Source of the DNA: Gammaproteobacteria bacterium
GTDB lineage: Bacteria > Pseudomonadota > Gammaproteobacteria > Steroidobacterales > Steroidobacteraceae
Direction of reading: 5' to 3'
Assembly: GCA_009926865.1 (NCBI GenBank)
Contig: RFOD01000014.1
Location: forward strand, 1-51,194
DNA length: 51,194 nt
Shown: piece after piece, positions 16,560 through 46,837 of the stretch
How positions within the stretch are numbered: position 1 is the first letter of the stretch
Layout: every line of letters starts with the position of its first letter
Made by a program: the position numbers and the translations under genes
Notes under the pieces: model-generated
What the model saw: only the letters and a program-made list of their open reading frames with translations
What the model was told of the DNA's origin: nothing
The model's database searches: none

Positions 16560-16572
16560 CAGAGCGCACATC

Positions 16573-30853: not shown

Positions 30854-31789
30854 ATGCTCCCGAACTCCGTACCGCTGAATCCGGTGACCGACGAAGACCG
30901 CCAGACCTATGAGCGTGATGGCTGCGTGGTCCTACGCGGGGTCTGTAATCAGGCCTGGGTCGATCGTCTGCTGCCGGTCGCCCGACGCATCACGGTCGAT
31001 AAAGAGGATTTTGGCTTATTACCGACCTATCCGGGCCGCTATATGTCGCGCACGGTCGCCGAATTTCGTGACCTCGTCTTTAACGGTCCGCTCGCTGAGG
31101 CGGCTTGTCGAGTAATGGGCTCCAAAGAAGCTCATTTTTTCTTTGATGAAATATTTGCCAAACCGCCTCGTTCAGATGAAAAAACCATCTGGCATACCGA
31201 TCGGATGGGCTGGCCGGTCGAGGGCAAGATGGTTCCCTCACTCTGGATGCCCTTAACGCGGATTACGCAGGCTAATTCGCTCGAGTGTATCGCGGGCTCG
31301 CACGTGCAGGATGTGCGCTATTGGTTGTTCTCGCCCAATGCTCGCAAAATGATCAAGCCCCCGGATCGGGTGCCGCACCCGAATCCCGAGCCGCTACGCA
31401 ATGACCCGAACACGCGTTTCATGCGTTGGGATATGGAGCCTGGGGATCTACTGATCGTGCACCCGTGGACCCTCCATTACTCCGGCGGGAATCCTGAAGA
31501 CGATTGGCGTATTGCGCTGTCGCTTCGAATCTTTGGTGATGACATCCGCTGGGCCCCACGTCCCGATTGCGTCAATCTCGCCGGTATCAGTCATGATGAG
31601 ATGATCGAGGGTGAACGACCCATGGGTCCGCTGTGTCCTCTGATCTGGTCGGAAGATGGGCGTCGCGATGGCGATGAGGCCTTCCCGCGAGGTTTCGCGA
31701 CCCGCTGGACCCGTAAACGCAAGCAGGATGTTAACGAATACGATATTTTCTCAAAGAGTCTGCAAGCTGCGCAAAAGGAGGCAGGTTGA
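30854..31789 (+). CDS. PhyH-family Fe(II)/2-oxoglutarate dioxygenase
   Basis: GAGGAA is 8 bases ahead of ATG 30854; the product is 311 residues. The jelly-roll iron triad is visible as His114 and Asp116 in IWHTDRMGW and His208 in LHYSGGN, with Arg in WRIALSLR for the co-substrate. DGCVVLRGV near the N-terminus and GDLLIVHPWTLH are also typical of PhyH. It would hydroxylate or halogen-free-oxidise an organic acid or related metabolite. It is the first gene of a four-gene operon and its stop overlaps the upstream region of the methyltransferase gene. It is a second PhyH protein in the window, not obviously a close copy of the first. Confidence 0.9.
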   Translation: MLPNSVPLNPVTDEDRQTYERDGCVVLRGVCNQAWVDRLLPVARRITVDKEDFGLLPTYPGRYMSRTVAEFRDLVFNGPLAEAACRVMGSKEAHFFFDEIFAKPPRSDEKTIWHTDRMGWPVEGKMVPSLWMPLTRITQANSLECIAGSHVQDVRYWLFSPNARKMIKPPDRVPHPNPEPLRNDPNTRFMRWDMEPGDLLIVHPWTLHYSGGNPEDDWRIALSLRIFGDDIRWAPRPDCVNLAGISHDEMIEGERPMGPLCPLIWSEDGRRDGDEAFPRGFATRWTRKRKQDVNEYDIFSKSLQAAQKEAG

Positions 31790-31791
31790 GT

Positions 31792-32805
31792 ATGCGAGGG
31801 TATCAGGGGGTATTGCCGCGTACGCCATCGCTCGAGGACGAGAGCTATTTGGGCTTCATGGAGTCCCTGCGTAACCAAAATATTCTGCAGTTTTTTCCTA
31901 AGATTGCTGCGTTTGCGCATGAGCCGAACGCGGAGGGCGACCCTCGGGTACGTCTTTGGAAGCGTCTCATGCGTAGTCAGCAGCAACAGACGTGGGAGAA
32001 GTTGCAGCAGAGCTTTGACTCCCAACGTGCCGCCTATGAGGATGAATTGGCAGCGGCCGAGCGCGCTCGGCCCGGACGATTACATGCCGATCCTACCTTT
32101 CAAGTTCCCGCTTATGCGACGCTCGACATTCATCTGCAGCCCGGTGGTTATGTCGGCGACTCGCTCGCAGGGTATGTCTTTCATCACGGGACCAAAGTTT
32201 TCTATCAAGGCGCAAACGATCAGGATGAGCTGCATCGGCAGGTCGTCGATTTTGTCAGCGCACCCGAGAGCGGTGAGGTCAAGCGAGTGCTGGATCTCGG
32301 TTGTTCAATTGGTCAATGCACCACCGCCTTAAAGCAGCGCTTCCCCGCGGCCGAGGTGACGGGACTCGATGTGGGATTGCCGCTCCTGCGTTACGCACAC
32401 AAGCGTGCGGTGGACCTCGATATCGATGTGCATTTTCGACACGGTCTGGCCGAAGATACCGGTCTGCCGTCCGGTCAATACGATGTGATTCTGGCCTATA
32501 TTTTGTTTCACGAAGTACCCGAGCGCCTCTTCAAAGTGATTTTGGCTGAGGTGTTTCGGCTATTACGACCCGGTGGACGTTTCACCGTGGTCGATGCGCC
32601 AAACAATCGTAATTTGCCTGCAGCCAATAAACTTTGGCTCAAGTTCGACGCGCGTTATAACTGTGAGCCGTATTCGCCTGCGTTTGTGGCCAGTGATTTC
32701 CAAGGTTTGTTGCAGGAAGCAGGCTTTCGCGTGCTGGAGTCCAAACCCACACCGACATTCTTGCACTGCACGGTCGCCCAAAAGGATGACGGCGCGAGCG
32801 GATGA
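31792..32805 (+). CDS. SAM-dependent methyltransferase with novel N-terminal domain, copy 1
   Basis: ATG 31792 has AAGGAGG at about 10 bases; a TTG at 31786, overlapping the PhyH stop, is the alternative start. In the 337-residue product a helical N-terminal domain (about 1-105) leads into the motif DIHLQPGGY (112-120). A class I Rossmann methyltransferase domain follows with DLGCSIG (168-174), TGLDV, the LFHEVP motif and LRPGG. A C-terminal FDARYNCEPY segment is shared with the second copy at 44355. The N-terminal domain and the DIHLxPGxY motif do not match a methyltransferase group I know by function. Its stop overlaps the FAD oxidase start as ATGA. Confidence 0.85.
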   Translation: MRGYQGVLPRTPSLEDESYLGFMESLRNQNILQFFPKIAAFAHEPNAEGDPRVRLWKRLMRSQQQQTWEKLQQSFDSQRAAYEDELAAAERARPGRLHADPTFQVPAYATLDIHLQPGGYVGDSLAGYVFHHGTKVFYQGANDQDELHRQVVDFVSAPESGEVKRVLDLGCSIGQCTTALKQRFPAAEVTGLDVGLPLLRYAHKRAVDLDIDVHFRHGLAEDTGLPSGQYDVILAYILFHEVPERLFKVILAEVFRLLRPGGRFTVVDAPNNRNLPAANKLWLKFDARYNCEPYSPAFVASDFQGLLQEAGFRVLESKPTPTFLHCTVAQKDDGASG

Positions 32806-34385
32806 GTGCGTCGGTCGATAGTCTTTCGCACTTTCGCGCGCGACTCGGGGACGAGCAGGTACTCGATTCGCTAGAGCAGCGACAATTCTTTGCGCAGGAT
32901 GTCTATCGACGAGGTGTAACGCCTGAGCTTGTGCTGCGACCGCGTTCCACCGCGGACGTGCAGGCCCTTGTGCAAGTTGCGCGACAAACGCGTACCGCGT
33001 TACATGTGCGCGGAGGCGGGATGTCCTACACGGATGCTTTCCTGCCGTGGAAGAGCGAGTCGGCGGTGGTGGATCTGTCGGGTTTAAATCGCATTCGCTC
33101 GATCACCCCCGATGATTTAGTGCTAACGGCTGAAGCGGGCTGCACCTGGTTACAAATCGATCAAGCGCTCGCACCGCATGGGCTAAGAGCCCGATTTTGG
33201 GGGCCGATGTCCGGCGCGCTGTCCACGTTGGGTGGAGGGATGTCTCAGGGCGCTGCAACTTTTGGTTCCGCGCGGCATGGGACCTCGGCCTCTGCAGCCC
33301 TTAGTTTTGAAGTCGTCCTGGGGACCGGGGAAGTGCTCGACACCGGGGCGCTGAGCGGTGATTCGGAGGCGTACCGTCGATCGGCGTTTTTCCGACCCTA
33401 TGGACCCGATATCACCGGACTTTTTACCGCGGATGCCGGCGCGCTGGGCATCAAAACGGCGGTAACGCTGCAACTCGAGCCGCGACCTCGCGCACGCGCG
33501 GCGTTGTCCTTCGCGTTTGATGACTTTGAGAGTCTGCAACGCGCTACGGCCGCCATTCTGCGGAGCGGGCTTGCGACCGAAATCTTTGGCTTAGAGACGT
33601 CCTTAGCCAAGCTTGTGGCTGGCGAGCAAGGCCTGATGCAGGATTTCAACGCGCTGCTCTCGGTGTCTCGAGCGCAGGGTAGCCTAGGGCGTGCGCTGAC
33701 CCAAGCGGCTCGCATGGCGCTTGCGGGACGGGGCTTTTTGGCGCGCTCGCAATTCATTGGTAATGTGCTACTTGAGGGTCGTGATGCGCGCCGCCTCGCC
33801 GCGGACGCTGATGAAGTTAGAGTGTTGGTGGGGCGTGATGGCCGCGAGGTCGCCAACACCATGGCGGCTATGGTGCAGTCGACGCCGTTTCCGCAGCCCA
33901 TGGTGGTCGGTCCGGGGGGTCGGCGTCTCTTGCCGCTGAATGTAATCTTGCCGCACTCTGCCGTGTCCGGGTTTCACAAAGATTTTGAGGTGCTCCGTGA
34001 GCGACATCAGGCACGGTGCCAAGAGCTGGGTGTCTTGTTATTCATGGTGTTCGCGGGCATCGGTCCCTCTTGCGTGCTACATGAGCCGGTGATTTATTGG
34101 CAGGACGAGTGGCTACCTTTGCACGCAGCGACGCTCGATGACAGCCTGCGAGAGTGGGTGAAGCCGGCGGCTGATCACCCGAAAGCGCGCGACTATGTGG
34201 AGGCCTTGCGCCTCGAGTTGGTCGCGTTGATGGCTAAACATCAGGGCGCACATCTGCAGATTGGACGCGCCTATCCTTACCTAAAAGCGCGCAATCCGGT
34301 TTTTAAAGATCGGCTAGTCGCGCTCAAAGATTGGGCCGATCCCGATGGGATCTTAAACCCGGGCGCACTGGGGCTTGGCGTATGA
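32802..34385 (+). CDS. FAD-linked oxidase (FAD_binding_4 / VAO-PCMH type)
   Basis: The 527-residue flavoprotein has the PCMH-type FAD domain: PELVLRPRSTADVQALVQVA, HVRGGGMSYTDAF for the pyrophosphate, and GPMSGALSTLGGGMSQGA. A substrate/cap domain and the C-terminal DPDGILNPGALG signature of GlcD/VAO oxidases follow. Members oxidise 2-hydroxy acids, phenolic alcohols or amino alcohols. No signal peptide is seen, so it is cytosolic or membrane-associated. It sits between the methyltransferase and the FAD monooxygenase, joined by ATGA overlaps at both ends, and the three flavin or iron oxidative steps in this operon suggest sequential oxidation of one substrate. Confidence 0.9.
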   Translation: MSASVDSLSHFRARLGDEQVLDSLEQRQFFAQDVYRRGVTPELVLRPRSTADVQALVQVARQTRTALHVRGGGMSYTDAFLPWKSESAVVDLSGLNRIRSITPDDLVLTAEAGCTWLQIDQALAPHGLRARFWGPMSGALSTLGGGMSQGAATFGSARHGTSASAALSFEVVLGTGEVLDTGALSGDSEAYRRSAFFRPYGPDITGLFTADAGALGIKTAVTLQLEPRPRARAALSFAFDDFESLQRATAAILRSGLATEIFGLETSLAKLVAGEQGLMQDFNALLSVSRAQGSLGRALTQAARMALAGRGFLARSQFIGNVLLEGRDARRLAADADEVRVLVGRDGREVANTMAAMVQSTPFPQPMVVGPGGRRLLPLNVILPHSAVSGFHKDFEVLRERHQARCQELGVLLFMVFAGIGPSCVLHEPVIYWQDEWLPLHAATLDDSLREWVKPAADHPKARDYVEALRLELVALMAKHQGAHLQIGRAYPYLKARNPVFKDRLVALKDWADPDGILNPGALGLGV

Positions 34386-35589
34386 GCGCAAGCATCAACA
34401 AGGCCGGCTCGCGAGAGGTCGCGATCGTGGGCGCGGGGATCGGTGGCTTGGCGGCTGCCATCGCGCTTCGTTTAGCGGGGTATCAGCCCACGGTTTACGA
34501 ACAAGCCCCTCACTTGGGGGAAGTCGGCGCGGGGTTATCGCGAATGCGGTCAAGGCACTCGACTGGTTGGGTGTTGGGGAGCACGTTCGGCAGATCGCGG
34601 ATGAGCCCTTACAGCAACTGACGTGTCATTACGCGAGCGGCGATCTCTTGGTCAGTTTTGATCGTCACAACACGCGCGAGCAATACGGTGCGCCTTATCT
34701 GCAAATGCACCGAGCGGATTTGCACGCGCTACTGGTTGAGCGTTTACGCGCTTTGGCGCCGGATGCGATCCAAATCGACCATCGCTTAGTCGAGGTTAGC
34801 CTCTCTGATGATGCGACATCGCAAGGCGTGAGTTTGCGATTTGAAAATTCGGCTGGTCGTGAGATAGAGCGAAGAGTGCCTGCAGTTATCGGCGCCGATG
34901 GCCTTAAATCTTTGGTCCGCAGGACGCTATGGCAAGTCGAGCCACCTGCTTATTCGGGGTTCGTCGCGTGGCGTGGGCTTGCGGAAGCTTCACAGATTCA
35001 AGCTGAGCTCAGTGAGGGCTCCAAAGTTTTCGCGGGCCCCGGCCGACTTTTCGTGCGCTATCCGATTCGTCAGGGTCGGTTGATGAATTACGTCGCCTTT
35101 TTAAAGGTAGCTGAGCCGCAGGGTGAAAGCTGGTCGCAGCAGGGTGAGGTGACAGAACTTCAAGCGTTGCTCGTAGGCTTTCATTCTGAAGTCGCCGCGA
35201 TTTTGGCCGCGACACCTGAGGGACGATGTCACAAGTGGGGACTGTACGCGCGAACGCCTCTTGCGCAATGGTCGCGAGGTGATGTCGTATTGCTCGGTGA
35301 TGCCGCGCATCCCATGATGCCTTGGTTCGGTCAGGGCGCGGCGAGTGCGTTGGAAGATGCGGTCATCTTAGGCCGCTGCCTGCAGGAAAGTACCTCAATG
35401 GCTGAAGCAGCGGATCGATTTCAAAGGACGCGTTTGGAACGCGTGAGCTTTATTCACCGCGAGTCCCAAGCAGGGGGCGAGCGATTGACGGCGCTGCATC
35501 CCGAGCGCTTACGGGATAGCGCCGTACGCAACGAAGATAGCTTAGGCCTGATGAGTTACGACCCGGTCTTGGGTCCACTCTGCGCTTGA
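34382..35589 (+). pseudogene. FAD-dependent monooxygenase (salicylate hydroxylase-like) disrupted near its N-terminus
   Basis: ATG 34382 overlaps the oxidase stop (ATGA). Frame one encodes the Rossmann motif VAIVGAGIGGLAAAIALR and EVGAGLS up to about 34540, then enters a non-homologous frame. The frame two bases on starts at ANAVKALDWLG (34540 onward) and continues to the C-terminal LLGDAAHPMMPWFGQGA and stop 35589. Relatives have GAG plus five residues before NA; here only eight bases remain between GGG and AAT, consistent with loss of seven bases. Restored length would be about 404 residues. Such enzymes hydroxylate aromatic or heteroaromatic acids using NAD(P)H. A seven-base loss is less likely to be a simple read error than the single-base shift at 27576. 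The 3' end overlaps the LysR gene by 34 bases. Confidence 0.82.
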
Positions 35590-36476
35590 GCTTTGGCCAC
35601 TGCCCGGAAGGCTTCCAGCACATAGGAGAGCGCAGGGCGTTCCTGCTCTCCCACTCGGTAGATGAGTCCCGCCGGACGCTCAATCACATGATTGTCGACA
35701 GGTAGGCTACGAAGCCGATCTGCCATGCGCTCATGGTTGAGATGCTCAGGGAGAGGGCTCAAAAAGCGTCCGCTTGCGACTAGTGACAACATCAAGGTCA
35801 AAGAATTAGTGCGGAATACATCGCGCGGCGGTGGGAGGCCATCGGCAGAAAAAAACTTCTCGAAACTATCTTGAGCATGCGGCTGATCCGCAATTACCCA
35901 GCGATAAGGGACGAGATCCGCCCGAGTGAGCTCTCGACGGCCTGCCAACGGATGGGTACGTCCGGCCATGATACTGGAGCGCACGGTGGTCAGTGGCTCG
36001 AGTACGAGATTGGGTGATACGGATACGGGGGGGAAGTTGGTGAAGATCACATCGACGCGGCCATCATTCAATTGCCGTAGAAGATCTTCGAAGAAGGCTT
36101 CATTAATCACGAGTGCCAAGCGTGGATGCGCTTCACAGAGCGCCTCGGCGACTTGACTCGTCAGATGGGTGGCGTACATGGCCGCGACACCCACATGCAC
36201 CGTGCCGGTCACGCCTCGCTCAAGCTCACGCACCTCGCGTGTCAAGCGCTGGCAGGCATTGAGAACAATTTGTGCGTGCCGATAAAGCGCAAGTCCCGCC
36301 TCGGTGGGCGTGACGCCGCGCGGCTTACGCTCCAAGAGATCCATGCCCAGCATGTCCTCCAGATTTTTGATACTGCGCGTGAGCGCAGGCTGGCTGATCG
36401 CGACGCGCTCAGCGGCCCTTGATAAGTTGCCACTATCGACGACGGCGACGAAATGGCGCAATTGGCGCAGCTCCAT
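35556..36476 (-). CDS. LysR-family transcriptional regulator
   Basis: ATG 36476, preceded by GAGGGGGAA, gives 306 residues; the frame is open 19 codons further but without a ribosome binding site. The N-terminal winged helix-turn-helix is typical (MELRQLRHFVAVVDSGNLS; AAERVAISQPALTRSIKNLE). A periplasmic-binding-like effector domain follows with HPLAG and the last part truncated only slightly. LysR proteins respond to a pathway intermediate and usually control a divergent promoter. Here the divergent gene is the GMC oxidoreductase, and the gap holds a matching dyad. It probably controls operon B and perhaps operons A and C. Confidence 0.93.
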   Translation of the reverse strand: MELRQLRHFVAVVDSGNLSRAAERVAISQPALTRSIKNLEDMLGMDLLERKPRGVTPTEAGLALYRHAQIVLNACQRLTREVRELERGVTGTVHVGVAAMYATHLTSQVAEALCEAHPRLALVINEAFFEDLLRQLNDGRVDVIFTNFPPVSVSPNLVLEPLTTVRSSIMAGRTHPLAGRRELTRADLVPYRWVIADQPHAQDSFEKFFSADGLPPPRDVFRTNSLTLMLSLVASGRFLSPLPEHLNHERMADRLRSLPVDNHVIERPAGLIYRVGEQERPALSYVLEAFRAVAKAQAQSGPKTGS

Positions 36477-36506
36477 GTATTCCCCCTCGATATCTGCCGC
36501 ACCTGC

Positions 36507-36523
36507 GATGCGGTGAGCGCATC
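36507..36523. promoter_or_regulatory. Candidate LysR operator (T-N11-A dyad)
   Basis: GATGCG-GTGAG-CGCATC is a perfect 6-bp inverted repeat with a T at 36509 and an A at 36521 separated by 11 bases, the standard LysR-type half-site geometry. It lies 31 bases upstream of the regulator start and 85 bases upstream of the GMC start. Confidence 0.6.
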
Positions 36524-36608
36524 GATTGTGCAACGGAAATGATTGGCTGACAAAATCACCCGTAACAGACTATGCCTGATTGTCGCGTTGGGGGGAGAGT
36601 TCGCGCAG

Positions 36609-38225
36609 ATGGCTTGGGACTTCATCGTAGTCGGTGCGGGTTCAGCAGGGTGCGCGTTAGCACGGCGCTTATCCGAGCGGAGTAGCGCGCAGGTGTTACT
36701 CCTCGAAGCGGGCGGCTCAGATCGCACCCCAATCGTGCAAGTCCCGGCGGGTCTCGTCAAAGCCATTGGTCGACCGCGTTTCGATTGGTGTCATCTGGCT
36801 GAGCCCGATGCATCGCGACTCGGCAAAGTGGATTTATGGCCCGCAGGCAAAGTGCTGGGCGGTTCGAGTTCTATCAACGGTATGTTATTTGTGCGCGGCC
36901 ACGCCGCTGATTACGATCATTGGGCGGCGCTGGGCTGTCAGGGTTGGGGCTACAACGACGTCTTGCCGTACTTTAAGCGCTTAGAGCGCACCGCCTTTGG
37001 TGAGGATGCGATCCGCGGACGCGAAGGACCCATGCACGTCTCGCCATTACGCACACGGCACCCCTTGGCAGAGGTCTTTCAGCGCGCGGCAATTGAACAA
37101 GGCTTTGCCTTCAATGAGGATTACAACGGCGCTGTGCAGGATGGCGTGGCGGAGCCTCAAATTTCGCAATATCACGGCAGGCGCTGGAGTAGTGCGCGCG
37201 GCTATCTCGAGCCGATTCGCGGTCGAGCTAACCTCACCATTCAACTGCGAACGCAGGTGCTACGCTTACTCATCGAGCACGGTCAATGTGTGGGCGTAAC
37301 GGTGCGGCGTGCCGATGGGAGTGAGCAGTCGTATCGCTTAAACCCGGGTGGCGAGGTGGTCTTGAGTGCGGGGGCGCTCGGGACACCGCGGATTTTATTG
37401 AGTTCAGGAGTCGGGGACGCCGAAACACTGCAAGCCTTAGGGATCGCGGTACATGCTGATCGCGCTGAAGTGGGTCGTAATTTGCAGGAGCACCCCAACT
37501 CAGTGGTTTGCGCTCGGGTCAATGTTCGCACCTACAACATGGACTCGACGCCCTGGGGCATGTTCAAAAATGGTTTACGTTGGTTGATCACTCGAGATGG
37601 CCCTGCGACGAGTCCCTATCCTCATGCGGTGATGTTTGCACGGTCGAGCTCCAGCGAGCCACGCCCTGATTTACAGTTTTTATTTGGTCCGTTCGCGTTT
37701 TCTTTTGATGAGCGCGGCGTGATCCCCTACACAGGGCCTGCGGTATCGATCGTATTCAATACCTGCGTGCCGCAAGCTCGCGGGAAAGTGAGTTTGACCT
37801 CGGCCGATCCGCTCGCGCCCATTCGTATCGAGCATCGTTTACTTGAGCATCCCCAAGATCTCGCCCGACAAATGGCCGGTGCACGGATCGCGAGGGCCAT
37901 ACTGCGCTCATCGGAGTTCGCAGGGTTTGACTGCGAGGAGTACCTGCCTGGACCTTCCGTGGGCGAGGACGACACCGAGGCTTGGACCGAGCATCTGCGA
38001 AAGACGAGCTTCCTCGGCTACCATCCGGTGGGTACCTGTCGGATGGGCGCTGATGCCGAGGCGGTTGTCACGCCTCGCTTAGCGGTGCAGGGCGTTGGAG
38101 GGTTGCGGGTGGCGGATGCGTCGATCATGCCGCAGATTGTCGCTGCGAATACGCACGCGACCGCCGTGATGATCGCTGAGAAAGCCTCGGACATGATTTG
38201 GGAGGATCGGCATGCCAGAGCGTGA
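36609..38225 (+). CDS. GMC-family FAD oxidoreductase (choline dehydrogenase-like)
   Basis: ATG 36609 follows GGGGGGAGAG at 9 bases and gives 538 residues; the frame is open from 36543 but without a signal. The Rossmann FAD motif VVGAGSAGCALARRL lies at the N-terminus, then LLEAGG and KVLGGSSSINGM of the GMC signature. Near the C-terminus the catalytic pair is His472 (YHPVGTCRMG) and Asn514 (AANTHA). The family oxidises primary or secondary alcohols to aldehydes or ketones, passing electrons to quinone or oxygen. It is the first gene of operon B and the gene divergent from the LysR regulator. Its 3' end overlaps the MFS gene by 14 bases. Confidence 0.93.
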   Translation: MAWDFIVVGAGSAGCALARRLSERSSAQVLLLEAGGSDRTPIVQVPAGLVKAIGRPRFDWCHLAEPDASRLGKVDLWPAGKVLGGSSSINGMLFVRGHAADYDHWAALGCQGWGYNDVLPYFKRLERTAFGEDAIRGREGPMHVSPLRTRHPLAEVFQRAAIEQGFAFNEDYNGAVQDGVAEPQISQYHGRRWSSARGYLEPIRGRANLTIQLRTQVLRLLIEHGQCVGVTVRRADGSEQSYRLNPGGEVVLSAGALGTPRILLSSGVGDAETLQALGIAVHADRAEVGRNLQEHPNSVVCARVNVRTYNMDSTPWGMFKNGLRWLITRDGPATSPYPHAVMFARSSSSEPRPDLQFLFGPFAFSFDERGVIPYTGPAVSIVFNTCVPQARGKVSLTSADPLAPIRIEHRLLEHPQDLARQMAGARIARAILRSSEFAGFDCEEYLPGPSVGEDDTEAWTEHLRKTSFLGYHPVGTCRMGADAEAVVTPRLAVQGVGGLRVADASIMPQIVAANTHATAVMIAEKASDMIWEDRHARA

Positions 38226-39555
38226 TGTACCCGGCACCTGGAATGGGCCCAAAGAATCTTATAGCTGGTATGTGGTGTTGGTGCTTTGCGTCTGCGGCAT
38301 GGTGGCCTTCATCGATCGGCAGATCATCAATCTGCTGGTTGAGGACATCAAAGCCGATCTGCAAATCAGTGACACGGAGATCAGCTTGCTACAGGGTTTT
38401 GCGTTTGCGGTGTTTTACGCGTTGGCGGCGGTACCGCTTGGTCGGCTCGCGGATACCTCGAGTCGTCGTCGACTGATTACCGCGGGTATCGTGGTGTGGA
38501 CGGCCGCTGCGGCGGCGTGTGGTCTCGCCAAAAATTTCTGGCAACTTTTTATCGCACGGGTCTTTGTGGGAGTAGGCGAAGCGACGCTCACGCCATCGGG
38601 TTTTTCGATGATTGCCGATCTGTTTCGGCCGGGTCGAGTCTCCTTACCGATTGCGGTATTCACCGCATCGAGCTTTGTCGGTTCGGGTGTTGCGCTATTG
38701 GTCGGTGGTTATGTGATTGCGATGCTGAGTCGCGCAGAAGCGATCTCCTTACCCATTTTCGGTGAGCTACGCACCTGGGAGGCGGCGTTTATCATCTGTG
38801 CGCTGCCAGGGGTGCTCGTTGCGTTGTGGTTTTTTTTGACGGTGCGTGAACCAGCGCGGCGCTCTGCGATGACGGAAAAAACTGTCACGGACGCAGAGAG
38901 CCGACCCTCCCTCGCGGAGGTGTGGGGTTTTGTCCAAACTAACTCGCGGGTTTTCATCGCCGTGTTTGCTGGGATCTCGGTGTTGGCTGCAGTCCAGTTT
39001 TGTCTAGGGGCCTGGGTGCCCGCCCATTTTATTCGTAACCATGGTTGGACCCCTTCGCAGGTCGGTTACGCCTATGGATTGATTTTTTTGATCTGTGGGA
39101 CGGGTGGTGCGATCTCAGGCGGTTGGATCGCAGATCGCTTGCAACGAAAGGGAATCAAAGACGGCCATCTGCGAACAGCCATGTGGGCAGCCCTAGTGGC
39201 AGCGCCCTTTGTGGTGGTATTTCCGGCTGTCAGTGACCCTCAGCTCGCGATCGCTTTGCTCGCGCCCGTCGTGTTTTTTGGCACGATGCCTTTCGGAGCG
39301 GGGCCCGCGCTGATCCCTGTGATTTGTCCTCCGCGGATGCGGGGGTTATTGGTTGCGATCTATCTTTTGATCGCGAATTTAATTGGACAGGCGGGCGGGC
39401 CGCTAGTGGTCGCACTCTTTACTGATTGGGTCTTTGGTTCGCCTGAGCTCGTGAGTCGCTCGCTGATGATCGCACCGGTTGCGCTCTTGCTCTTGGGCGC
39501 GGCCCTGGTGGCGCGTGGCATGGCACCGCTGCGGAGGTTCTATGAAACAGCGTGA
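38212..39555 (+). CDS. MFS transporter, spinster-like
   Basis: GGAGG precedes ATG 38212 by 6 bases, inside the end of the GMC gene. The 447-residue protein has 12 hydrophobic segments. YVVLVLCVCGMVAFIDRQIINLLVEDIK in helix 1, GRLADTSSRRRLI in the helix 2-3 loop and GVGEATLTPSGFSMIADLF in helix 4 are characteristic of the spinster-type proteobacterial MFS group found in catabolic clusters of hydroxylated, aromatic or terpenoid compounds. Direction (uptake or efflux) is not shown by sequence; co-expression with an oxidase and an acyl-CoA synthetase favours uptake. The gene overlaps the synthetase gene by 14 bases. Confidence 0.9.
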   Translation: MPERDVPGTWNGPKESYSWYVVLVLCVCGMVAFIDRQIINLLVEDIKADLQISDTEISLLQGFAFAVFYALAAVPLGRLADTSSRRRLITAGIVVWTAAAAACGLAKNFWQLFIARVFVGVGEATLTPSGFSMIADLFRPGRVSLPIAVFTASSFVGSGVALLVGGYVIAMLSRAEAISLPIFGELRTWEAAFIICALPGVLVALWFFLTVREPARRSAMTEKTVTDAESRPSLAEVWGFVQTNSRVFIAVFAGISVLAAVQFCLGAWVPAHFIRNHGWTPSQVGYAYGLIFLICGTGGAISGGWIADRLQRKGIKDGHLRTAMWAALVAAPFVVVFPAVSDPQLAIALLAPVVFFGTMPFGAGPALIPVICPPRMRGLLVAIYLLIANLIGQAGGPLVVALFTDWVFGSPELVSRSLMIAPVALLLLGAALVARGMAPLRRFYETA

Positions 39556-41422
39556 GCTCTATGCGAAGTGGCGCCAAGACCCCGAGCGGTTTTGGCGTGA
39601 TGCGGCTCAAGCGATCAGCTGGGATCAGTCGCCGACGATCATCTGTGATACCGATACGTCACCCGCGGGACATTGGTTTACCGATGGCCAGCTGAACGCC
39701 TGTTACAACGCGGTCGATCGGCATGTCGAAGCCGGTCGCGGTGAGCAGGCGGCGCTCGTGCATGTCAGCGCGATGACCGGTGCGAGCGAGTCGATCAGTT
39801 TCTCGCAGCTACAGCATGAGGTCGCGCGCCTTGCTGGCGCCTTGCGCGCGCAGGGCGTTCAGGCCGGTGATCGCGTCATCATTTACATGCCCATGGTGCC
39901 GCAAGCAGTGTATGCGATGCTCGCCTGTGCGCGGATCGGTGCCATTCATTCGGTGGTGTTTGGTGGCTTCGCGGCGCGGGAGCTCGCTGTACGTATCGAT
40001 GATGCACAGCCCGTACTGCTTTTGACGGCTTCCTGTGGTTTGGAGCCCGGCCGTGTGGTCGATTACATGGGGCTGGTAAGACGAGCGCTGGAACTGGCCG
40101 AGCACAAGCCATCCAAAACGGTCGTGTGGCAGCGACCGCAAGCACCTGCCGACTTAGGTGCCGATTACATGGATTGGTTGGATTTTATTGACGGTGTAGA
40201 GCCTGCCGCGCCCGTCTCGATGGCAGCGACGGCGCCGCTTTATATTCTCTATACGTCCGGTACGACCGGTAAGCCCAAAGGGGTGCTGCGGGATACGGGG
40301 GGCTACCTCGTGGCGCTCTCCTGGTCGATGCATCACGTGTACGACACCGCTGCGGGCGAGTGCTTTTGGGCAGCCTCGGATATCGGTTGGGTGGTGGGCC
40401 ACTCGTACATCGTCTATGGACCCTTGATTGCCGGCTGCACGACGCTGATGTTCGAAGGTAAACCGGTGGGCACCCCCGATGCGGGAACCTTCTGGCGGAT
40501 TATCGAGCAGTATCAAGTGAAGACCTTATTTACCGCACCGACGGCGCTGCGCGCGATCAAGCGTGAAGATGCAGCGGGTCGATTCATCAAAGAATCCGAT
40601 ACGAGTTCGTTATCGGCGGTTTTTTTGGCAGGCGAGCGGGCAGATCCCGATACGGTGCAGTGGGTGGGCGAGCAGTTGTCGGTACCCGTAATTGATCACT
40701 GGTGGCAGACTGAAACAGGTTGGCCGATCGTGGCGAATTGTTTGGGTGCCGGCGAGCCTTTGCCTGTCAAATTGGGGAGCGCGAGCTTACCGATCCCGGG
40801 TTTCGAGGTACGTGTGCTCAATGAGCTTGGGCAGACGCTCGGGTCGAATGAGCAAGGCGATCTCGTGTTGGGTCTGCCCTTGCCGCCAGGATGTCTCCCC
40901 ACATTGTGGAACGATCCCACAGGATTTGAGGCCGCCTATTTCACGACTCATCCGGGTTGGTACAACAGTGGTGATGGGGGTTATATCGATGAGGACGATT
41001 ATGTCTTCATCATGGGTCGCGTGGATGACGTGATTAATGTCGCAGGTCATCGTCTTTCCACCGGTGAATTAGAGCAATCTTTGGCAGGTCATTCGGCGGT
41101 CGCAGAATGCGCCGTGATTGGTGTGGCCGATGGCTTAAAAGGGACGGTGCCGCTCGGGCTCGTGGTACTCAAAGCCGGCGTTACTCATGATGCACAAATC
41201 TTGATTGCCGAGCTCATCGCCAAAGTCCGTGAAGATGTGGGGCCGGTTGCGAGTTTTCATCGCTGTCACATCGTGCCCCGATTGCCCAAAACCCGCTCGG
41301 GTAAAGTGTTACGGGCCACACTTCGGGCCATGGCTGCAGGACGAGAAGTACCCGTCCCGCCAACAATTGAAGACGCCTCCGTACTGGATGAATTACAGGG
41401 TTTATTACGCAGCGTGAGCTAG
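39542..41422 (+). CDS. Acyl-CoA synthetase, PrpE-like (propionyl/acetyl-CoA synthetase family)
   Basis: GGAGG is 5 bases ahead of ATG 39542; 626 residues, about the length of E. coli PrpE. ACAS N-terminal region FWRDAAQAISW, the P-loop LYTSGTTGKPKGV, the A5-like WWQTETGWPI and the hinge motif YNSGDGGYIDEDDYVFIMGRVDD are all present. The C-terminal NVAGHRLSTGELE and catalytic lysine in KTRSGK (Lys588) are intact. It activates a short-chain acid, propionate, acetate or a small substituted acid, as an acyl-adenylate and then a thioester. It is the last gene of operon B. Oxidation of the alcohol by the GMC enzyme and of the aldehyde by an aldehyde dehydrogenase would supply the acid. Confidence 0.92.
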   Translation: MKQRELYAKWRQDPERFWRDAAQAISWDQSPTIICDTDTSPAGHWFTDGQLNACYNAVDRHVEAGRGEQAALVHVSAMTGASESISFSQLQHEVARLAGALRAQGVQAGDRVIIYMPMVPQAVYAMLACARIGAIHSVVFGGFAARELAVRIDDAQPVLLLTASCGLEPGRVVDYMGLVRRALELAEHKPSKTVVWQRPQAPADLGADYMDWLDFIDGVEPAAPVSMAATAPLYILYTSGTTGKPKGVLRDTGGYLVALSWSMHHVYDTAAGECFWAASDIGWVVGHSYIVYGPLIAGCTTLMFEGKPVGTPDAGTFWRIIEQYQVKTLFTAPTALRAIKREDAAGRFIKESDTSSLSAVFLAGERADPDTVQWVGEQLSVPVIDHWWQTETGWPIVANCLGAGEPLPVKLGSASLPIPGFEVRVLNELGQTLGSNEQGDLVLGLPLPPGCLPTLWNDPTGFEAAYFTTHPGWYNSGDGGYIDEDDYVFIMGRVDDVINVAGHRLSTGELEQSLAGHSAVAECAVIGVADGLKGTVPLGLVVLKAGVTHDAQILIAELIAKVREDVGPVASFHRCHIVPRLPKTRSGKVLRATLRAMAAGREVPVPPTIEDASVLDELQGLLRSVS

Positions 41423-41628
41423 CGCTCGCGCATCTTGACGCCCTTTTGGGGTGGTCATCCTCGCTCGGGTCTGTTACGGTCTATTTTTCGTAGCCCAAGA
41501 AAGAGGCTCGAATCGCCCGCGCGATGCACTGTCATCGCCCGCCGTCCTTGAAAGGACGATCACAGGGGGCGTGTTGGTTCGCTGAGTCACACCGTCCCCG
41601 CCACCCGCACTATGCCTGGGAGGTGCTC

Positions 41629-42962
41629 ATGCGCACAGATAACGCGCCTCGTTATCAACCATATACGTTGACGCACTGGGATCAAATCCCGGGACTCGAT
41701 CGTTTGTCGGCGACGCGTCGTGAGGCGATGCGCGCTGTGGCGCACGTGTTGCCCTTTCGCACGAGCTCCTACGTCATCAACGAATTAATTGATTGGGATA
41801 ATGTTCCCCAAGATCCGATTTTTCAACTGACCTTTCCCCAGCCTGAAATGCTCGCGGAGGAAGATGTCGCGCATGTGGTCAAGTCGCTACGTAGCGGGGC
41901 GGCACGCAGGGAGATTCAGGCGCTTGCCAATGAAATCCGTCTGGGGCTCAATCCGCATCCAGCCGGTCAAATTGAGCACAACGTTCCTAAGATTGACGGT
42001 GAGCCCTTGCCGGGTTTGCAGCACACAAGTACTCTGATACGGTGCTTTTTTTCCCGAGTCGTGGCCAGACCTGTCACGCCTACTGTACCTATTGCTTTCG
42101 CTGGGCACAGTTTGTCGGCATGCAGGATCTAAAATTCGTGCAGCGTGAGACAGCGACGTTTCATCGTTATTTACGCAAGCACACAGAAGTGAGCGACGTG
42201 CTGTTCACAGGCGGTGATCCGCTCATTATGCGAGGCTGGCATTTACGCGATTACATTGAGCCGCTGCTGGGCCCTGGTTTCGATCATATTCGTCATATCC
42301 GTATTGGCAGCAAAGCACTCGCGTTTTGGCCTTATAAATTTTTGACAGATCCTGATGCAGACGACTTATTGCGTTTATTCGAACGCGTGTCGCAGTCCGG
42401 ACGGCAGCTGGCATTGATGGCGCACTTTTCGCATCCGCGTGAACTGGAAACGAAGGCGGTACGCGAGGCCATTACGCGGATTCGCAATACCGGCGCCATC
42501 ATTCGCACTCAGGCGCCACTCATTCGACACGTCAATGATTCGGCACAAGTCTGGGCGGATATGTGGAAGCTACAAACTCGCCTTGGTTGCATCCCGTACT
42601 ACATGTTTGTGGAGCGCGATACAGGGGCGAAGCGGTATTTCGAAGTCCCCCTAGGACGTGCGCACGAGATTTTCATCAAGGCCTACCGGCAGGTATCGGG
42701 GCTGGCACGCACGGTGCGCGGGCCCTCCATGTCAGCCATGCCCGGCAAAGTCGTGGTGCTTGGCGTTGAAGAAATTAGGGGTGAAAAAGTCTTCATTCTG
42801 AGCTTCCTGCGGGGTCGTCGACCGGAATGGGTTGGTCGGCCGTTCTTTGCCCGCTATGATTCGAGTGCGACTTGGCTCGATGATCTACGCCCGGCCTTCG
42901 GCAAGCCGCATTTCTTCTTTGAAGAAGAGGTCCCGCTCGCTTGGCAAAAGCAGGCGGGTTAA
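41629..42962 (+). pseudogene. KamA-like radical SAM protein (lysine 2,3-aminomutase family) with +2 frameshift
   Basis: GGGAGG lies 5 bases ahead of ATG 41629. Frame one encodes the N-terminal 132 residues (LPFRTSSYVINELIDWDN; FQLTFPQPEM) up to GLQH at 42024, then reads nonsense to a stop at 42132. The correct continuation is two bases on, from KYSDTVLFFP (42027) to 42962. Two surplus bases (AC at 42025-42026, a CA-repeat slip) explain it; 443 residues if repaired. The radical SAM cluster CHAYCTYC (Cys148, 152, 155 after repair) and the lysine in SAMPGK, which could hold pyridoxal phosphate as in lysine aminomutase, are intact. Family members move an amino group from C2 to C3 of lysine or glutamate. 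It heads operon C; the upstream 206-base gap holds no other gene. Confidence 0.85.
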
Positions 42963-42987
42963 CCGCCGGGAGCGAGGGGATGAACGC

Positions 42988-44373
42988 GTGCGAGGATCAT
43001 TGTTTGGCATAGCGGTCGCCACGATGGCGGTCTTTGGGCTTGCGGGTGAGCGGGTACATAGCGCCGAGGCTGAAGGGTCTGTCGTACCCCAAGCGAGAGT
43101 AATCGCATCGGCGGCTGATTTTTCCATCTTGTCGCCACGCGAGCGGGTCGAGCCCGAAAATCAGATCGTGGCCGAGCGCCTCGAATCTTTGTTGCCGACG
43201 TTGATGGCCGAAGTCGGGCTCGACATGTGGCTCATCATCAACCGTGAGTACGCCGAGGATCCTGTGTACTTCACGCTGGTGCCGCAGCCGAGTCTGGCCG
43301 CGCGTCGTACGACCATGCTGGTTTTTCATCGGCAAGCCGATGGTTCGGTGGCGAAGCTCTCCGTTAATCGTTATCCCCTTGGGGCGCCCTATGAGTCCGC
43401 ATGGGCGGGAGGCGATCTCGATGCCCAGTGGCGGGCGTTAGCTGACTTAATCGTCCAAAAAAATCCTGCTCGGATTGGTATCAATGTGTCACCGCATTGG
43501 CCCGTGGCCGATGGCTTGACGCATGCGCTTCACGAGCGGCTCGTGTCAGAGTTACCGACTGAGATCGCACAGCGACTTGTCAGTGCCGAAAACTTAAGTA
43601 TCCGATGGCTGGAGACACGTACGGCGAGCGAGCTTGAGATATACCCGCATATTGTGGGCATCGCGCGAGGGGTGATTGCCGAAGCGTTCAGTTCGCGTGT
43701 CATCACACCAGGCGTCACGACCACAGACGATGTGGCCTGGTTCATCCGCGAACGGTTTGAGTCCATGGGGCTGCCCATATGGTTTATGCCCTACGTCAAC
43801 CGTCAGGCTGCGGGTATCCCCTGTGAGAAAGACGCGGCATTTTGTGGTGTGAGCGGCGTCATTCGCCAAGGCGATGTGCTGCATACCGATGTCGGTATTT
43901 GTTACCTCAAGCTGTGCACCGATACGCAAGAGATGGGCTATGTCGCCCGAGTGGGTGAGTCCGAGGTGCCAGCAGGTTTGCGTGCTGCGATGACGAAAGG
44001 TAATCGTTGGCAGGATATTTTGACGAGTCAGTTCGTGACGGGACGTACCGGTAACGAAGTGCTCGCAGCGACACGAGCCGCAGCGGACAAAGAAAAGATC
44101 GTCAGCAGCACGTATACCCATCCGCTCGGTTTTGTGGGCCATGCGCCGGGGCCGACCATTGGTATGTGGGATAACCAGGGTCCAACCCCCGTGCAGGGTG
44201 ATTGGCCTTTGTATCCCTCCACCGTGTACGCCATCGAGGGCAATATCAAACATGCGTTGCCAGAGTGGCAGGGTCAGTGGGTCCAAGTGAAGCTGGAGCA
44301 GGACGCGGTATTCGACGGTGAGCGGGTGGTCTATCTCGCAGGGCGTCAGGCCACGTGGCATTTGATCAAATAA
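42988..44373 (+). CDS. Metallopeptidase family M24 (Xaa-Pro aminopeptidase/creatinase-like), exported
   Basis: GTG 42988 is preceded by GAGGGG at 8 bases and gives 461 residues starting with a short signal peptide (RGSLFGIAVATMAVFGLAG..HSAEA). An N-terminal creatinase-like domain (about 60-210) precedes the pita-bread catalytic domain. All five metal ligands are present: Asp301 (HTDVG), Asp312, His385 (GFVGHAPGP), Glu417 (YAIEGN) and Glu437 (VKLEQD). It is therefore a likely active di-metal peptidase, perhaps cleaving an Xaa-Pro or blocked peptide in the periplasm, rather than a creatinase. It lies 25 bases after the KamA-like gene and overlaps the second methyltransferase gene by 19 bases. 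Confidence 0.87.
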   Translation: MRGSLFGIAVATMAVFGLAGERVHSAEAEGSVVPQARVIASAADFSILSPRERVEPENQIVAERLESLLPTLMAEVGLDMWLIINREYAEDPVYFTLVPQPSLAARRTTMLVFHRQADGSVAKLSVNRYPLGAPYESAWAGGDLDAQWRALADLIVQKNPARIGINVSPHWPVADGLTHALHERLVSELPTEIAQRLVSAENLSIRWLETRTASELEIYPHIVGIARGVIAEAFSSRVITPGVTTTDDVAWFIRERFESMGLPIWFMPYVNRQAAGIPCEKDAAFCGVSGVIRQGDVLHTDVGICYLKLCTDTQEMGYVARVGESEVPAGLRAAMTKGNRWQDILTSQFVTGRTGNEVLAATRAAADKEKIVSSTYTHPLGFVGHAPGPTIGMWDNQGPTPVQGDWPLYPSTVYAIEGNIKHALPEWQGQWVQVKLEQDAVFDGERVVYLAGRQATWHLIK

Positions 44374-45557
44374 ATCCAGCTATCCCCGCGCTGACGAAAA
44401 CACGCGACGAAAAGGCGCGTGGGAATTTTTTGCGATCGTTTCGGCGGCATATCTTTGAGGATTTAGCGCGGGTGATGCGTGAGGACTACGCAACGCAGGT
44501 CGCATCGCGCTCTCATGCTCAGGGCGCGCGGGATGCCGAGGAGATCCACCGGCTGATGCGCCAACGGTCGAGCTTTCAGTTCTATTCCGCTTTACGCGTG
44601 GCGTCGCAGGATTTGCTCTATCAGGTCGTGCGTCCCCCGATTGAGCGCATGTACCGCGTAAGCGCTTCAACAGCCAAGAGCACACGATCCGCAAAGGGGC
44701 GAGCTCGTCACGGGCGAACGGCTCGCTTACATCTTGAGCCCGGCTTGCCGGTTCCCCGTTCGGTGAGCGCCGTCGACATCCATCTTATGCCGGGCAGTTA
44801 TACCGCTGCCTATGCAGACGACGACATGGCCATGGGTGCGGTTTATGACGCGCGCCTGAGGATCTCAACCTTTGGGGTGTTTGGGCCGGATCTCGATGAC
44901 ATCGGTCAGAGTGTCGCCCAGCATCTACGAGCTCTGAAACCCGATTTTCAGCCGCGCCGTATTCTCGATTTAGGATGCACGGTGGGACATAACACCTTGC
45001 CTTGGCGTCAGGCCTTTCCTCGTGCCGAGCTACACGGAATCGATGTGGCCGCACCGTGCCTGCGATACGCCTATCAGCGGGCGAACACGCTACGGATGCC
45101 AGTCAATTTTTGGCAAATGAACGCTAAGCACCTCCAATTCCCAGATCATCATTTTGATGTCGTGTTTTCCTCCATGTTCTTACATGAAGTACCCAAGCGC
45201 GATATCCCCGTGGTCCTGCGAGAGGCGTATCGGGTCTTGCGTCCGGGGGGTGTGATGCTACACATGGAACTACCGCCCGCGTCTGCCATTCATCCTTACG
45301 ACTCGTTTTATTTAGATTGGGATGGGCGCTATAACAATGAGCCCTACTATCGATCCTTTCGGGCAATGAATCCGCGCGCTGCGGTGGCGGCGGCGGGATT
45401 CAAGCCACACGATTTTTTTGAATGGGTGGTTCCCTCGCAGCATGCAGCTCGGTTCATAGATCCGCTCGTCGAAGAGAGCCCGCCAGAGTCAACCGATGAC
45501 AGACTAGGTCGACTGGCGCAGGGGGTGAAGTGGTATGTATTCGGAGCTCGTAAATAA
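44355..45557 (+). CDS. SAM-dependent methyltransferase with novel N-terminal domain, copy 2
   Basis: The frame begins at GTG 44355 (400 residues); no ribosome binding site is obvious, so the start may be later. The architecture parallels the copy at 31792: a helical, basic N-terminal domain (about 20-135), then DIHLMPGSY (141-149). The Rossmann methyltransferase follows with DLGCTVG (205-211), HGIDVAAPCLRYAYQRA, the MFLHEVPK motif, LRPGG and the terminal WDGRYNNEPYY. Compared with copy 1 it has a longer, Arg/Lys-rich linker before the DIHL motif (102-125). The substrate is unknown. The stop overlaps the MFS start (TAATG), placing it in operon C with the M24 peptidase and KamA-like protein. 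Confidence 0.85.
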   Translation: MAFDQINPAIPALTKTRDEKARGNFLRSFRRHIFEDLARVMREDYATQVASRSHAQGARDAEEIHRLMRQRSSFQFYSALRVASQDLLYQVVRPPIERMYRVSASTAKSTRSAKGRARHGRTARLHLEPGLPVPRSVSAVDIHLMPGSYTAAYADDDMAMGAVYDARLRISTFGVFGPDLDDIGQSVAQHLRALKPDFQPRRILDLGCTVGHNTLPWRQAFPRAELHGIDVAAPCLRYAYQRANTLRMPVNFWQMNAKHLQFPDHHFDVVFSSMFLHEVPKRDIPVVLREAYRVLRPGGVMLHMELPPASAIHPYDSFYLDWDGRYNNEPYYRSFRAMNPRAAVAAAGFKPHDFFEWVVPSQHAARFIDPLVEESPPESTDDRLGRLAQGVKWYVFGARK

Positions 45558-46837
45558 TGCCGAAGCCTGAGGCCGCCTGGGGCGTTGTCGCTGCATCGGC
45601 GCTCGGGCTCGCGACCGGTATTGCGACCACGATCGTTGCCACATTTGGGATTTTTTCCGCGGCGCTGACGGTCGAGTTTGGTTGGAATCAGGGCGATATT
45701 TTTGCGGCTTTGATGGTGGTGACCGTGGTCGCGGCGGTGCTGGCGCCACTGATGGGCGCATGGGTCGATCGCTATGGCGTGCGCCGAGTGATCGGGCTGT
45801 CGTTCATCGCTGAAGCCCTCATTTTTTTATCGTTTTATTGGCAGGGAGAGAGTTTAGCGAGCTTTTATGGGCGCTATGCCGCGCTCGCCTTCTTAGGTCT
45901 TGGCACGACGCATGTGGCGTTTGCGCGCCTCATCACCGTCTGGTTTGAAGCGCGTCGCGGGCTCGCACTGGGGTTGGCTTTATCCGGCGTGGGGATAGGC
46001 GGATTTCTATGGCCACTCTTGATTCAGGGGGTCATCGAAAATTTTGGATGGCGACTCGCTTATGTGTCGATCACTTCGGTCATCCTCATCATCACTGTAC
46101 CCGTCCTCTTCATTTGGGTTCGCGAGCCCTCGCGTACTCAGGGGTCTCAGTCCGACTCCGTCTCGCGTAGAGATACCCCTCGCAATGAGGCTGCGACCGA
46201 TCGCACCGCGCAGTCGTCACCTCTCTTGACGGGGCTGTCGCTCGGGGAAGCCGTTCGGCAGGGCGTATTTTGGCGCTTAGTGCTCGCCTTCTTTTTGGTG
46301 GGCTTTGCGATTCAAAGTCTACTTGTGCACGTGGTGCCGCTCCTACGGTTGCGATCGATCGATGCGAGTTATGCGGCTCTCGCGCAGTCGTTGATGTTTG
46401 TCGCGGTGACGAGTGGTCGCCTCGTTACCGGCTGGATGATGGATCGCATTTTTGCGCCGAGAGTCGCAGCCGGTTTTGTGATCGTGGCGCTCGCGGGAGT
46501 CATGTTGATGGCGAGCGCGCAGAGCGGTGTGTGGTTTTTAGTGGGTGCACTCTGTGTCGGTTTGGCGGTTGGCGCAGAAGTGGATGTGCTCGCTTATCTC
46601 GTCAGTCGGTATTTTGGGATTCTGAGCTTTAGTCAAATTTATGGTGTCTTTTACGGAGTGTATTCTTTGAGTGGTGGCGTAGGTCCCTGGTTTACGGCGC
46701 TCAGCGTGGATCAAACGGGCGCCTACGATTTCGCGCTGATGACTCATGTCGGCGTTTTGGCGACGGGGGCTGCGATACTCTGGTGGCTCCCGAGGTTTCA
46801 ACAGCCGAGTGGATTGCAGGGCGAGCCTGCGCCCTAA
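45557..46837 (+). CDS. MFS transporter, monocarboxylate/oxalate-formate-type
   Basis: This 426-residue, 12-helix protein starts at an ATG that overlaps the methyltransferase stop. FGWNQGDIFAALMV after helix 1 and WVDRYGVRRVIG in the helix 2-3 loop, with FARLITVWFEARRGLALGLALSGVGIGG in helices 4-5, are usual for the MCT-like/OFA group of bacterial MFS transporters that carry carboxylates. A polar loop of about 30 residues separates the halves. It ends operon C. The 3' end overlaps the convergent antiporter gene by 4 bases. Confidence 0.9.
   Translation: MPKPEAAWGVVAASALGLATGIATTIVATFGIFSAALTVEFGWNQGDIFAALMVVTVVAAVLAPLMGAWVDRYGVRRVIGLSFIAEALIFLSFYWQGESLASFYGRYAALAFLGLGTTHVAFARLITVWFEARRGLALGLALSGVGIGGFLWPLLIQGVIENFGWRLAYVSITSVILIITVPVLFIWVREPSRTQGSQSDSVSRRDTPRNEAATDRTAQSSPLLTGLSLGEAVRQGVFWRLVLAFFLVGFAIQSLLVHVVPLLRLRSIDASYAALAQSLMFVAVTSGRLVTGWMMDRIFAPRVAAGFVIVALAGVMLMASAQSGVWFLVGALCVGLAVGAEVDVLAYLVSRYFGILSFSQIYGVFYGVYSLSGGVGPWFTALSVDQTGAYDFALMTHVGVLATGAAILWWLPRFQQPSGLQGEPAP

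Follow-up and report, generated by a model that had tools for sequence, protein, structure and literature searches.

A conserved LysR-associated gene cluster of probable catabolic type in a Steroidobacteraceae genome and in sphingomonads

Do tightly packed genes that share one strand of a bacterial contig form a single pathway, or are some of them only neighbours? The question is raised by contig RFOD01000014.1 of a Steroidobacteraceae genome (assembly GCA_009926865.1), which we analysed over its positions 1 to 51,194 (51,194 nucleotides, hereafter the window). The window is contig C9 of a genome of 2.32 Mb in 103 contigs that is 96.9% complete. At positions 30854–46837 the original prediction saw an unfamiliar metabolic block of three operons, A, B and C, under a LysR switch. 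The genes it named are real, but its boundaries are wrong: the conserved unit starts ~10 kb upstream and ends at 41422. Our data reveal that the region of ~20.5–41.4 kb is one conserved cluster that contains operons A and B, the LysR gene, genes for an ornithine cyclodeaminase (OCD)-type protein, a cupin and a hydrolase, an aldehyde dehydrogenase (ALDH) gene and a GPH carrier gene. A TonB receptor, a short-chain dehydrogenase (SDR1) and a second hydrolase (ABH1) are probable members, while operon C is excluded. The block as first drawn is partly a chance neighbourhood, and the cluster is a genuine, conserved one of catabolic type built of known enzyme superfamilies.

Open reading frame (ORF) and domain searches of the window bore out the predicted gene list. 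By ORFs, Pfam and NCBIfam, operon A, the LysR gene and operon B lie where they had been placed, as do, by Pfam, the M24, second methyltransferase and second transporter genes and the opposite-strand OCD, cupin and alpha/beta hydrolase genes. The features are:

20509–21876, minus strand: GPH-type (MFS_2) cation symporter (Pfam MFS_2; NCBIfam gph 232.4 bits, cut-off 231.35); cluster member
21906–23510, plus strand: ALDH (Pfam Aldedh); cluster member
23854–24738, minus strand: alpha/beta hydrolase ABH1 (Pfam, under its cut-off); probable member
24726–25496, minus strand: short-chain dehydrogenase SDR1 (Pfam); probable member
25555–28168, plus strand (ORFs 25555–27618 and 27464–28168): TonB-dependent receptor, frame-interrupted (Pfam Plug and barrel); probable member
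28300–29328, minus strand: OCD/mu-crystallin-type imine reductase (Pfam)
29332–29829, minus strand: small single-domain cupin (Pfam Cupin_2)
29793–30725, minus strand: alpha/beta hydrolase ABH2, RutD-like (NCBIfam RutD, below cut-off)
30854–31789, plus strand: A1, PhyH Fe/2-oxoglutarate dioxygenase (Pfam PhyH)
31786–32805, plus strand: A2, S-adenosylmethionine (SAM) methyltransferase MT1 with a conserved IHLxPGGY stretch (Pfam)
32802–34385, plus strand: A3, FAD_binding_4 flavoenzyme of the vanillyl-alcohol oxidase/p-cresol methylhydroxylase (VAO/PCMH) type (Pfam; fold search)
34382–35589, plus strand: A4, FAD_binding_3 monooxygenase, frame-shifted near its start (Pfam)
35556–36533, minus strand: LysR-type regulator, divergent from operon B (Pfam)
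36609–38225, plus strand: B1, glucose-methanol-choline (GMC) oxidoreductase (Pfam; start choice inferred)
38212–39555, plus strand: B2, major facilitator superfamily (MFS) transporter (Pfam MFS_1)
39542–41422, plus strand: B3, PrpE/Acs-like acyl-CoA synthetase (NCBIfam, below cut-off; start choice inferred)
41629–42962, plus strand: KamA-family radical SAM gene, interrupted, in two frames (start choice inferred); not in the cluster
42988–44373, plus strand: M24-family protein (Pfam; start choice inferred); not in the cluster
44355–45557, plus strand: methyltransferase MT2, of the same expanded family as MT1; not in the cluster
45557–46837, plus strand: MFS transporter travelling with MT2; not in the cluster

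The evidence for the conserved unit comes from other genomes. A methyltransferase search of 60 genomes led to places in same-genus genomes where operons A and B are grouped with the divergent genes, and a PhyH scan, in which an eight-row alignment was run against one genome per species (84,980 species), yielded 37 loci with A1 relatives 61–84% identical in their best segment. This number is a lower bound, as the scan relies on two short peptide patterns. The titles of the gammaproteobacterial loci include Nevskiaceae, Steroidobacteraceae, Woeseiaceae, Thiotrichales and Lysobacterales, and those of the alphaproteobacterial loci include Sphingomonadaceae, Erythrobacter, Rhodospirillaceae and Rhodobacteraceae, with one named strain, Parasphingorhabdus marina DSM 22363. 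Among 369 sampled genomes of the class, three (own included) hold a PhyH gene at E ≤ 1e-60.

To quantify co-occurrence, 37 dioxygenase-bearing loci, made up of 29 of the 37 scan loci and the other eight at the same places taken from whole genomes, were compared with 40 control loci of near-equal total length (601 vs 613 kb; median 19.5 vs 16.0 kb). L124 and L127 were excluded, their stretches having no dioxygenase. The controls lie around methyltransferase paralogues and are not random, so the Fisher values are indicative. Counting homologues of at least 40% identity and at least 40% query coverage, we found that the OCD-cupin-hydrolase genes and ALDH, which had been described as adjoining the three-operon block, go with operons A and B: ABH2 was present in 27 of the 37 loci, the cupin in 23, OCD in 19 and ALDH in 18, each against 0 of 40 controls. 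The corresponding numbers for loci and controls were 18 and 0 for MT1, 17 and 0 for A3, 16 and 2 for B2, 15 and 0 for A4, 14 and 0 for LysR, 14 and 1 for B1, 12 and 0 for the GPH carrier and 11 and 0 for B3 (one-sided Fisher 8e-13 for ABH2 to 1e-4 for B3). Among the probable members, SDR1 was found in 5 loci (0.02), ABH1 in 3 and the TonB receptor in 2 (0.23, not significant), none of them in the controls; ABH1 adjoins SDR1 also in L119, L120, L126, L151 and L153. Operons A and B belong together as predicted, since 15 of 16 A3-bearing loci also hold a B gene and the sixteenth, L146, ends inside A4. Gene order is reshuffled between lineages, with much of the set retained.

A1 orthologues (E < 1e-100) occur in 12 of the 60 genomes, own included; the cupin is in 11, all among those 12 (Fisher 3.5e-11), as are all 11 genomes with top-tier A3. 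In a tree of 32 PhyH rows, the window falls in a supported clade of six, consisting of five same-genus rows (window included) and one gammaproteobacterial scan locus, and the sphingomonad rows form one clade together with one gammaproteobacterial row. The genome itself has just two PhyH genes at E ≤ 1e-5, both inside the window, and plasmid-borne PhyH relatives are at most about 35% identical among the matches listed.

The cluster exists in two versions. That of the gammaproteobacteria has MT1, A3, A4, GMC, MFS and the acyl-CoA synthetase, while the sphingomonad version retains PhyH, OCD, cupin, ABH2, ALDH and the GPH carrier; its methyltransferase and receptor are less closely related. In up to nine loci this sphingomonad version adds a flavin monooxygenase, arylmalonate-decarboxylase-superfamily, allantoinase-like and phosphoenolpyruvate (PEP)-mutase-superfamily proteins, glutathione S-transferases (GSTs), beta-lactamase-family proteins and a Chlorophyllase-Pfam hydrolase (40.6 bits). 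Mixed forms are found in L137, L141 and L159–L161. Racemases of the arylmalonate-decarboxylase superfamily carry cysteines at two positions, and a KKCGH-type motif is a lyase feature. Inspection of the sequences showed no cysteine at either position in the arylmalonate-decarboxylase-superfamily protein and no such motif in the PEP-mutase-like protein, which weakens the maleate-isomerase and methylisocitrate-lyase readings.

We propose that the ~20.5–41.4 kb block is one conserved LysR-associated catabolic cluster for a small cyclic, probably nitrogen-containing natural product, to which we assign a probability of roughly 0.62. This reading is supported by the co-occurrence relative to controls of near-equal length, the almost matching distributions of A1, the cupin and top-tier A3 over the 60 genomes, the retention of the set under reshuffled order and the A3-bearing loci that nearly always have B genes; domain content, the LysR gene and the importers point to oxidative breakdown. 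In the putative scheme, the TonB receptor and the MFS and GPH carriers would import the compound, which the PhyH dioxygenase, the VAO-type flavoenzyme and the flavin monooxygenase would hydroxylate and oxidise. A carboxylic acid may then be formed from an alcohol by the GMC oxidoreductase and ALDH. After opening, the fragment that carries the nitrogen may be handled by the RutD-like hydrolase together with the cupin and the OCD-type imine reductase, and the PrpE-like ligase would turn the released acid into a CoA thioester. The LysR gene, ALDH and acyl-CoA ligase suggest the catabolic direction, as do the sphingomonad PEP-mutase-superfamily enzyme, allantoinase-like protein, flavin monooxygenase, GSTs and esterase-like proteins. 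Nitrogen in the substrate is suggested by OCD, whose best solved relative is D1-pyrroline-2-carboxylate reductase (E 7e-47), by ABH2, which is nearest RutD (TIGR03611; 190 bits, below the cut-off of 238.5), and by the allantoinase-like partner. The original prediction recognised no pathway in the set, and we could name no known one for it; its suggestion that a nitrogen-containing compound is broken down fits the cluster. The LysR protein probably controls the cluster; its gene lies between A and B, head to head with B alone and, at its other end, tail to tail with A, whose last gene it overlaps.

Several observations weigh against this proposal. Cluster members lie on separate contigs in two genomes: in G003, which is without top-tier A3, A1 and the cupin are on different contigs, and in G011 A2–A3 are separated from the A1 copies in the same way (G038 has A1 and A3 but no cupin match). 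Only part of the set is common to the alpha- and gammaproteobacterial versions, whose substrates may differ. TonB receptors at least 40% identical are in just 2 of the 37 loci, and any TonB receptor is in 16 of 37 loci against 7 of 40 controls, and the controls themselves are centred on methyltransferase paralogues. It is unusual for a catabolic route to include a SAM methyltransferase, and the catabolic model does not account for the role of MT1. No core enzyme of A, B or the OCD-cupin-hydrolase group reaches an NCBIfam cut-off, and their reactions are therefore assigned by superfamily. Finally, comparison with relatives reads three window genes in two frames, two of them cluster genes, and the pathway may not work in this strain. 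The TonB receptor is broken near 27579, where relative L120 aligns in two frames; in A4, translation from 34382 gives the nucleotide-binding start, and the frame changes shortly after it. For the KamA-like gene, L108 aligns to 41629–42057 (frame 1) and 42024–42926 (frame 3), placing the break between 42024 and 42057. Sequencing error or true decay may be the cause.

Could the cluster instead build or tailor a compound? A small oxidised and methylated product, exported by the MFS carrier and retaken by the TonB receptor in the manner of a siderophore, would be consistent with overlapping genes for a methyltransferase, a dioxygenase, flavin enzymes and an adenylate-forming enzyme. In addition, A1 is nearest the biosynthetic MysH (profile match E 4e-31, the nearest solved relative by a wide margin), followed by SnoK (5e-7), and OCD relatives include SbnB. 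However, no scaffold builder (nonribosomal peptide synthetase, polyketide synthase or terpene synthase) appeared when window proteins were scanned with Pfam, and ALDH, CoA ligase, LysR and the ring-hydrolase-like and lyase-superfamily proteins of sphingomonads are more typical of catabolism. We consider a biosynthetic role unlikely.

Somewhat less plausible is that A and B represent separate known routes, for example gentisate-type ring hydroxylation, alcohol oxidation and propionate activation, co-located by chance. The nearest families do suggest such routes: A4 matches 3-hydroxybenzoate 6-monooxygenase (163 bits, and also HpxO), B3 the propionate-CoA ligase PrpE (PRK10524; 726 bits) and B1 the choline dehydrogenase BetA (TIGR01810; 431 bits). 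Yet all three fall under the curated cut-offs (459, 955 and 732 bits, respectively), with superfamily membership clear for B3 and with a chloramphenicol-inactivating oxidoreductase as the best solved relative of B1. Moreover, no other gene of those routes is among the window's Pfam hits, and the set stays together across classes. Named routes for vitamin B6, nicotinate, ectoine, homarine, pyrimidine (Rut) and urate/allantoin, as well as the breakdown of chlorophyll or tetrapyrroles, were weighed and not adopted.

A narrower proposal, which we regard as improbable, is that the cluster degrades mycosporine-like amino acids or a related imino-cyclohexenone sunscreen in heterotrophic bacteria. These compounds are candidate substrates because MysH is the nearest solved relative of A1, whose H114, D116 and H208 are invariant in eight sequences. 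A1 would remove or hydroxylate the amino-acid arm in a MysH-like reaction, GMC and ALDH would oxidise the ring hydroxymethyl group, ring opening would fall to the flavin enzymes, and the resulting imine and amine pieces would be handled by OCD, the cupin and the RutD-like hydrolase. Unlike MysH clusters, the window has no dehydroquinate-synthase-type or ATP-grasp domain among its Pfam hits, and mysABCD neighbours are absent from these hits accordingly; the former domain is a mark of MysA and ATP-grasp a mark of MysC/MysD. Among the open-access papers listed by our literature searches, none described this cluster or bacterial mycosporine catabolism.

Operon C was ruled out of the pathway by linkage and by the separate distributions of its genes. 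The original prediction had named a lack of linkage in relatives as grounds for refuting it, and for operon C this is what the cluster loci show. KamA (both parts), M24, MT2, the C-operon MFS, NaCa and TadA are in 0 of the 37 loci at ≥40% identity, and KamA, M24 and the C-operon MFS have no match there even at E ≤ 1e-10 with the query coverage threshold at 40% or less. MT2 at ≥40% identity is in 24 of the 40 controls, which were chosen around its own methyltransferase family. The near-continuous overlap of stops and starts that had joined the operons holds within A and within B (4–14 bases) but is broken by a gap of ~200 bases before the likely KamA-like start at 41629, which GGAGG precedes (an in-frame ATG at 41524 is an alternative). 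The KamA-like gene, at E ≤ 1e-20, is in 13 of 246 genomes from the order, own included (11 close, >400 bits; 2 weak). Six of the 60 relatives match it, own included, but no further genome of the genus does among the 23 searched. It stands alone in the 10 relatives that were viewed, with no neighbour family common to more than three and with weak paralogues as the only A/B-type genes nearby. M24 is in 16 of the 60 genomes, own included, and among 23 same-genus genomes it coincides with an MT1 orthologue only in G009 and G015; the two occupy different genome sets, with no significant exclusion (Fisher P 0.19). In half of the 20 loci listed (10), the C-operon MFS gene is next to an MT2-like gene or at most ~1.3 kb away from one. 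The KamA-like gene, M24 and the MT2-MFS pair each follow their own distribution. In favour of A, B and C as one pathway are the shared strand and small gaps of this one genome and G052, which has both dioxygenase and KamA-like gene, though on different contigs. Such a pathway is nevertheless hardly credible: no cluster locus holds a C gene at ≥40% identity, the KamA-like gene is missing from all 23 other same-genus genomes searched, eight of which have A genes, its viewed relatives have only weak A/B paralogues nearby, and M24 is distributed differently.

Because operon C is not in the cluster, the arguments from an aminomutase, a peptide-linked substrate and twin methyltransferases drop. The KamA-like protein has the radical-SAM CxxxCxxC (CHAYCTYC in the window, C-x3-C-x2-C in 10 of 10 relatives) and, as a candidate site of the PLP-binding lysine, a PGK conserved in the window and the same relatives; its alignment to 2a5h stops before PGK. 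Against AblA it scores 81 bits, from a C-terminal fragment only (cut-off 525), and it has no single intact frame in this genome. It represents a distinct radical SAM subfamily (41629–42962; L108–L117), 58–79% identical to the window's C-terminal part, with a conserved GPSMS[AT]xPGK stretch and no common neighbourhood in 10 genomes. The M24-family protein (42988–44373) is 65–79% conserved in 14 of 59 other genomes, the fifteenth match being 33% identical, and has no solved relative at E ≤ 0.001.

The supposed twins MT1 and MT2 are 28% identical and are two of 17 members of the METHYLTRANSFERASE family in this genome (E ≤ 1e-6). This is a large lineage expansion, 17 copies in 2.3 Mb, with 28 and 30 copies at 1e-20 in two relatives, 30 being the highest number in one relative. 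The copies lie in the window at 31786–32805 and 44355–45557 and on contigs C1, C2, C3, C11, C13, C18, C20, C22, C34, C44, C62, C63, C72 and C82 of the same genome (G000); some adjoin UbiD, old-yellow-enzyme-like, FAD_binding_2 or MmgE/PrpD genes. Pfam covers MT1 from residue 136 onward only. Its AlphaFold model (predicted local distance difference test, pLDDT, 92) gave template modelling (TM) scores of at most 0.50 of the query among the 50 solved structures listed, many aligning about 190–230 columns and the longer ones loosely, which is consistent with matches that cover just the SAM-binding part. A paralogue is paired with an arylmalonate-decarboxylase-superfamily gene, 62–65% identical to the sphingomonad-cluster copy, in L053 (G000:C62, 4125–6159), L047, L048, L049 and L065, the last also having allantoinase-like and flavin-monooxygenase genes. 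A pairing of the family with FAD_binding_4 oxidases outside the cluster was too weak to adopt: among 82 oxidase paralogues, 6 lie no more than 5 kb from a methyltransferase of the family (2.6 expected, P about 0.05) and 13 no more than 13 kb (6.8 expected), from a methyltransferase list cut at low scores.

Elsewhere in the window, the genome's only other PhyH gene stands ahead of genes for a sodium:solute symporter, for a GST-like protein and for a short-chain dehydrogenase (13493–17541), and a peptidoglycan-recycling-type group of N-acetylmuramoyl-alanine amidase, beta-lactamase-family protein, M19 dipeptidase and LD-carboxypeptidase lies at 5172–10203. Scans for sigma-70 sites (6 vs 7.7 in shuffles) and terminators (25 vs 19.2, standard deviation 4.3) were not used.

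Held together across two classes despite its reshuffled order, the set probably serves one chemistry, and the substrate is therefore likely a widespread natural product. The cluster is probably a toolkit shared by distantly related bacteria that takes up and oxidises one natural compound. One of the carriers, Parasphingorhabdus marina DSM 22363, bears a culture-collection number, which makes the sphingomonad version's substrate directly testable. The dissection also removes a misleading lead, the radical-SAM aminomutase and peptidase, and raises a second question, that of the expanded methyltransferase family with its Pfam-unmatched N-terminal part.

How does the cluster compare with known systems? 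MysH, an Fe/2-oxoglutarate dioxygenase of cyanobacterial mycosporine-like amino acid clusters, is described as important in palythine biosynthesis (PMC11378024). A1 shares its aligned H-x-D...H, but the similarity is distant and the neighbours of A1 look degradative. A3 resembles the VAO/PCMH family (vanillyl-alcohol oxidase, p-cresol methylhydroxylase, D-lactate dehydrogenase) in FAD_binding_4 (Pfam, 103 bits) and in fold along the greater part of the protein (Foldseek E about 1e-21; the model used has pLDDT 68, with low confidence at 487–497 and 512–527), whereas its C-terminal half has no Pfam match at the threshold used; the fold matches include non-phenol enzymes and do not separate phenol oxidases, D-lactate dehydrogenases and AGPS. 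Rut (pyrimidine) and allantoin/urate ring degradation are alike in the RutD-like hydrolase, the HpxO-matching monooxygenase, the cupin and the sphingomonad allantoinase-like protein but differ in that no protein reaches a family cut-off and no further route gene is among the annotated neighbours. Lastly, the 12–42 kb stretch of plasmid pJE1 of Sphingomonas sp. JE1 shows just 28–38% identity, no PhyH match in the stretch read and other partners (hydantoinase/oxoprolinase, CoA-transferase), yet it is like the cluster in combining a methyltransferase of the MT1 family with FAD_binding_4 oxidases, a cupin, an MFS transporter, a TonB receptor and alpha/beta hydrolases.

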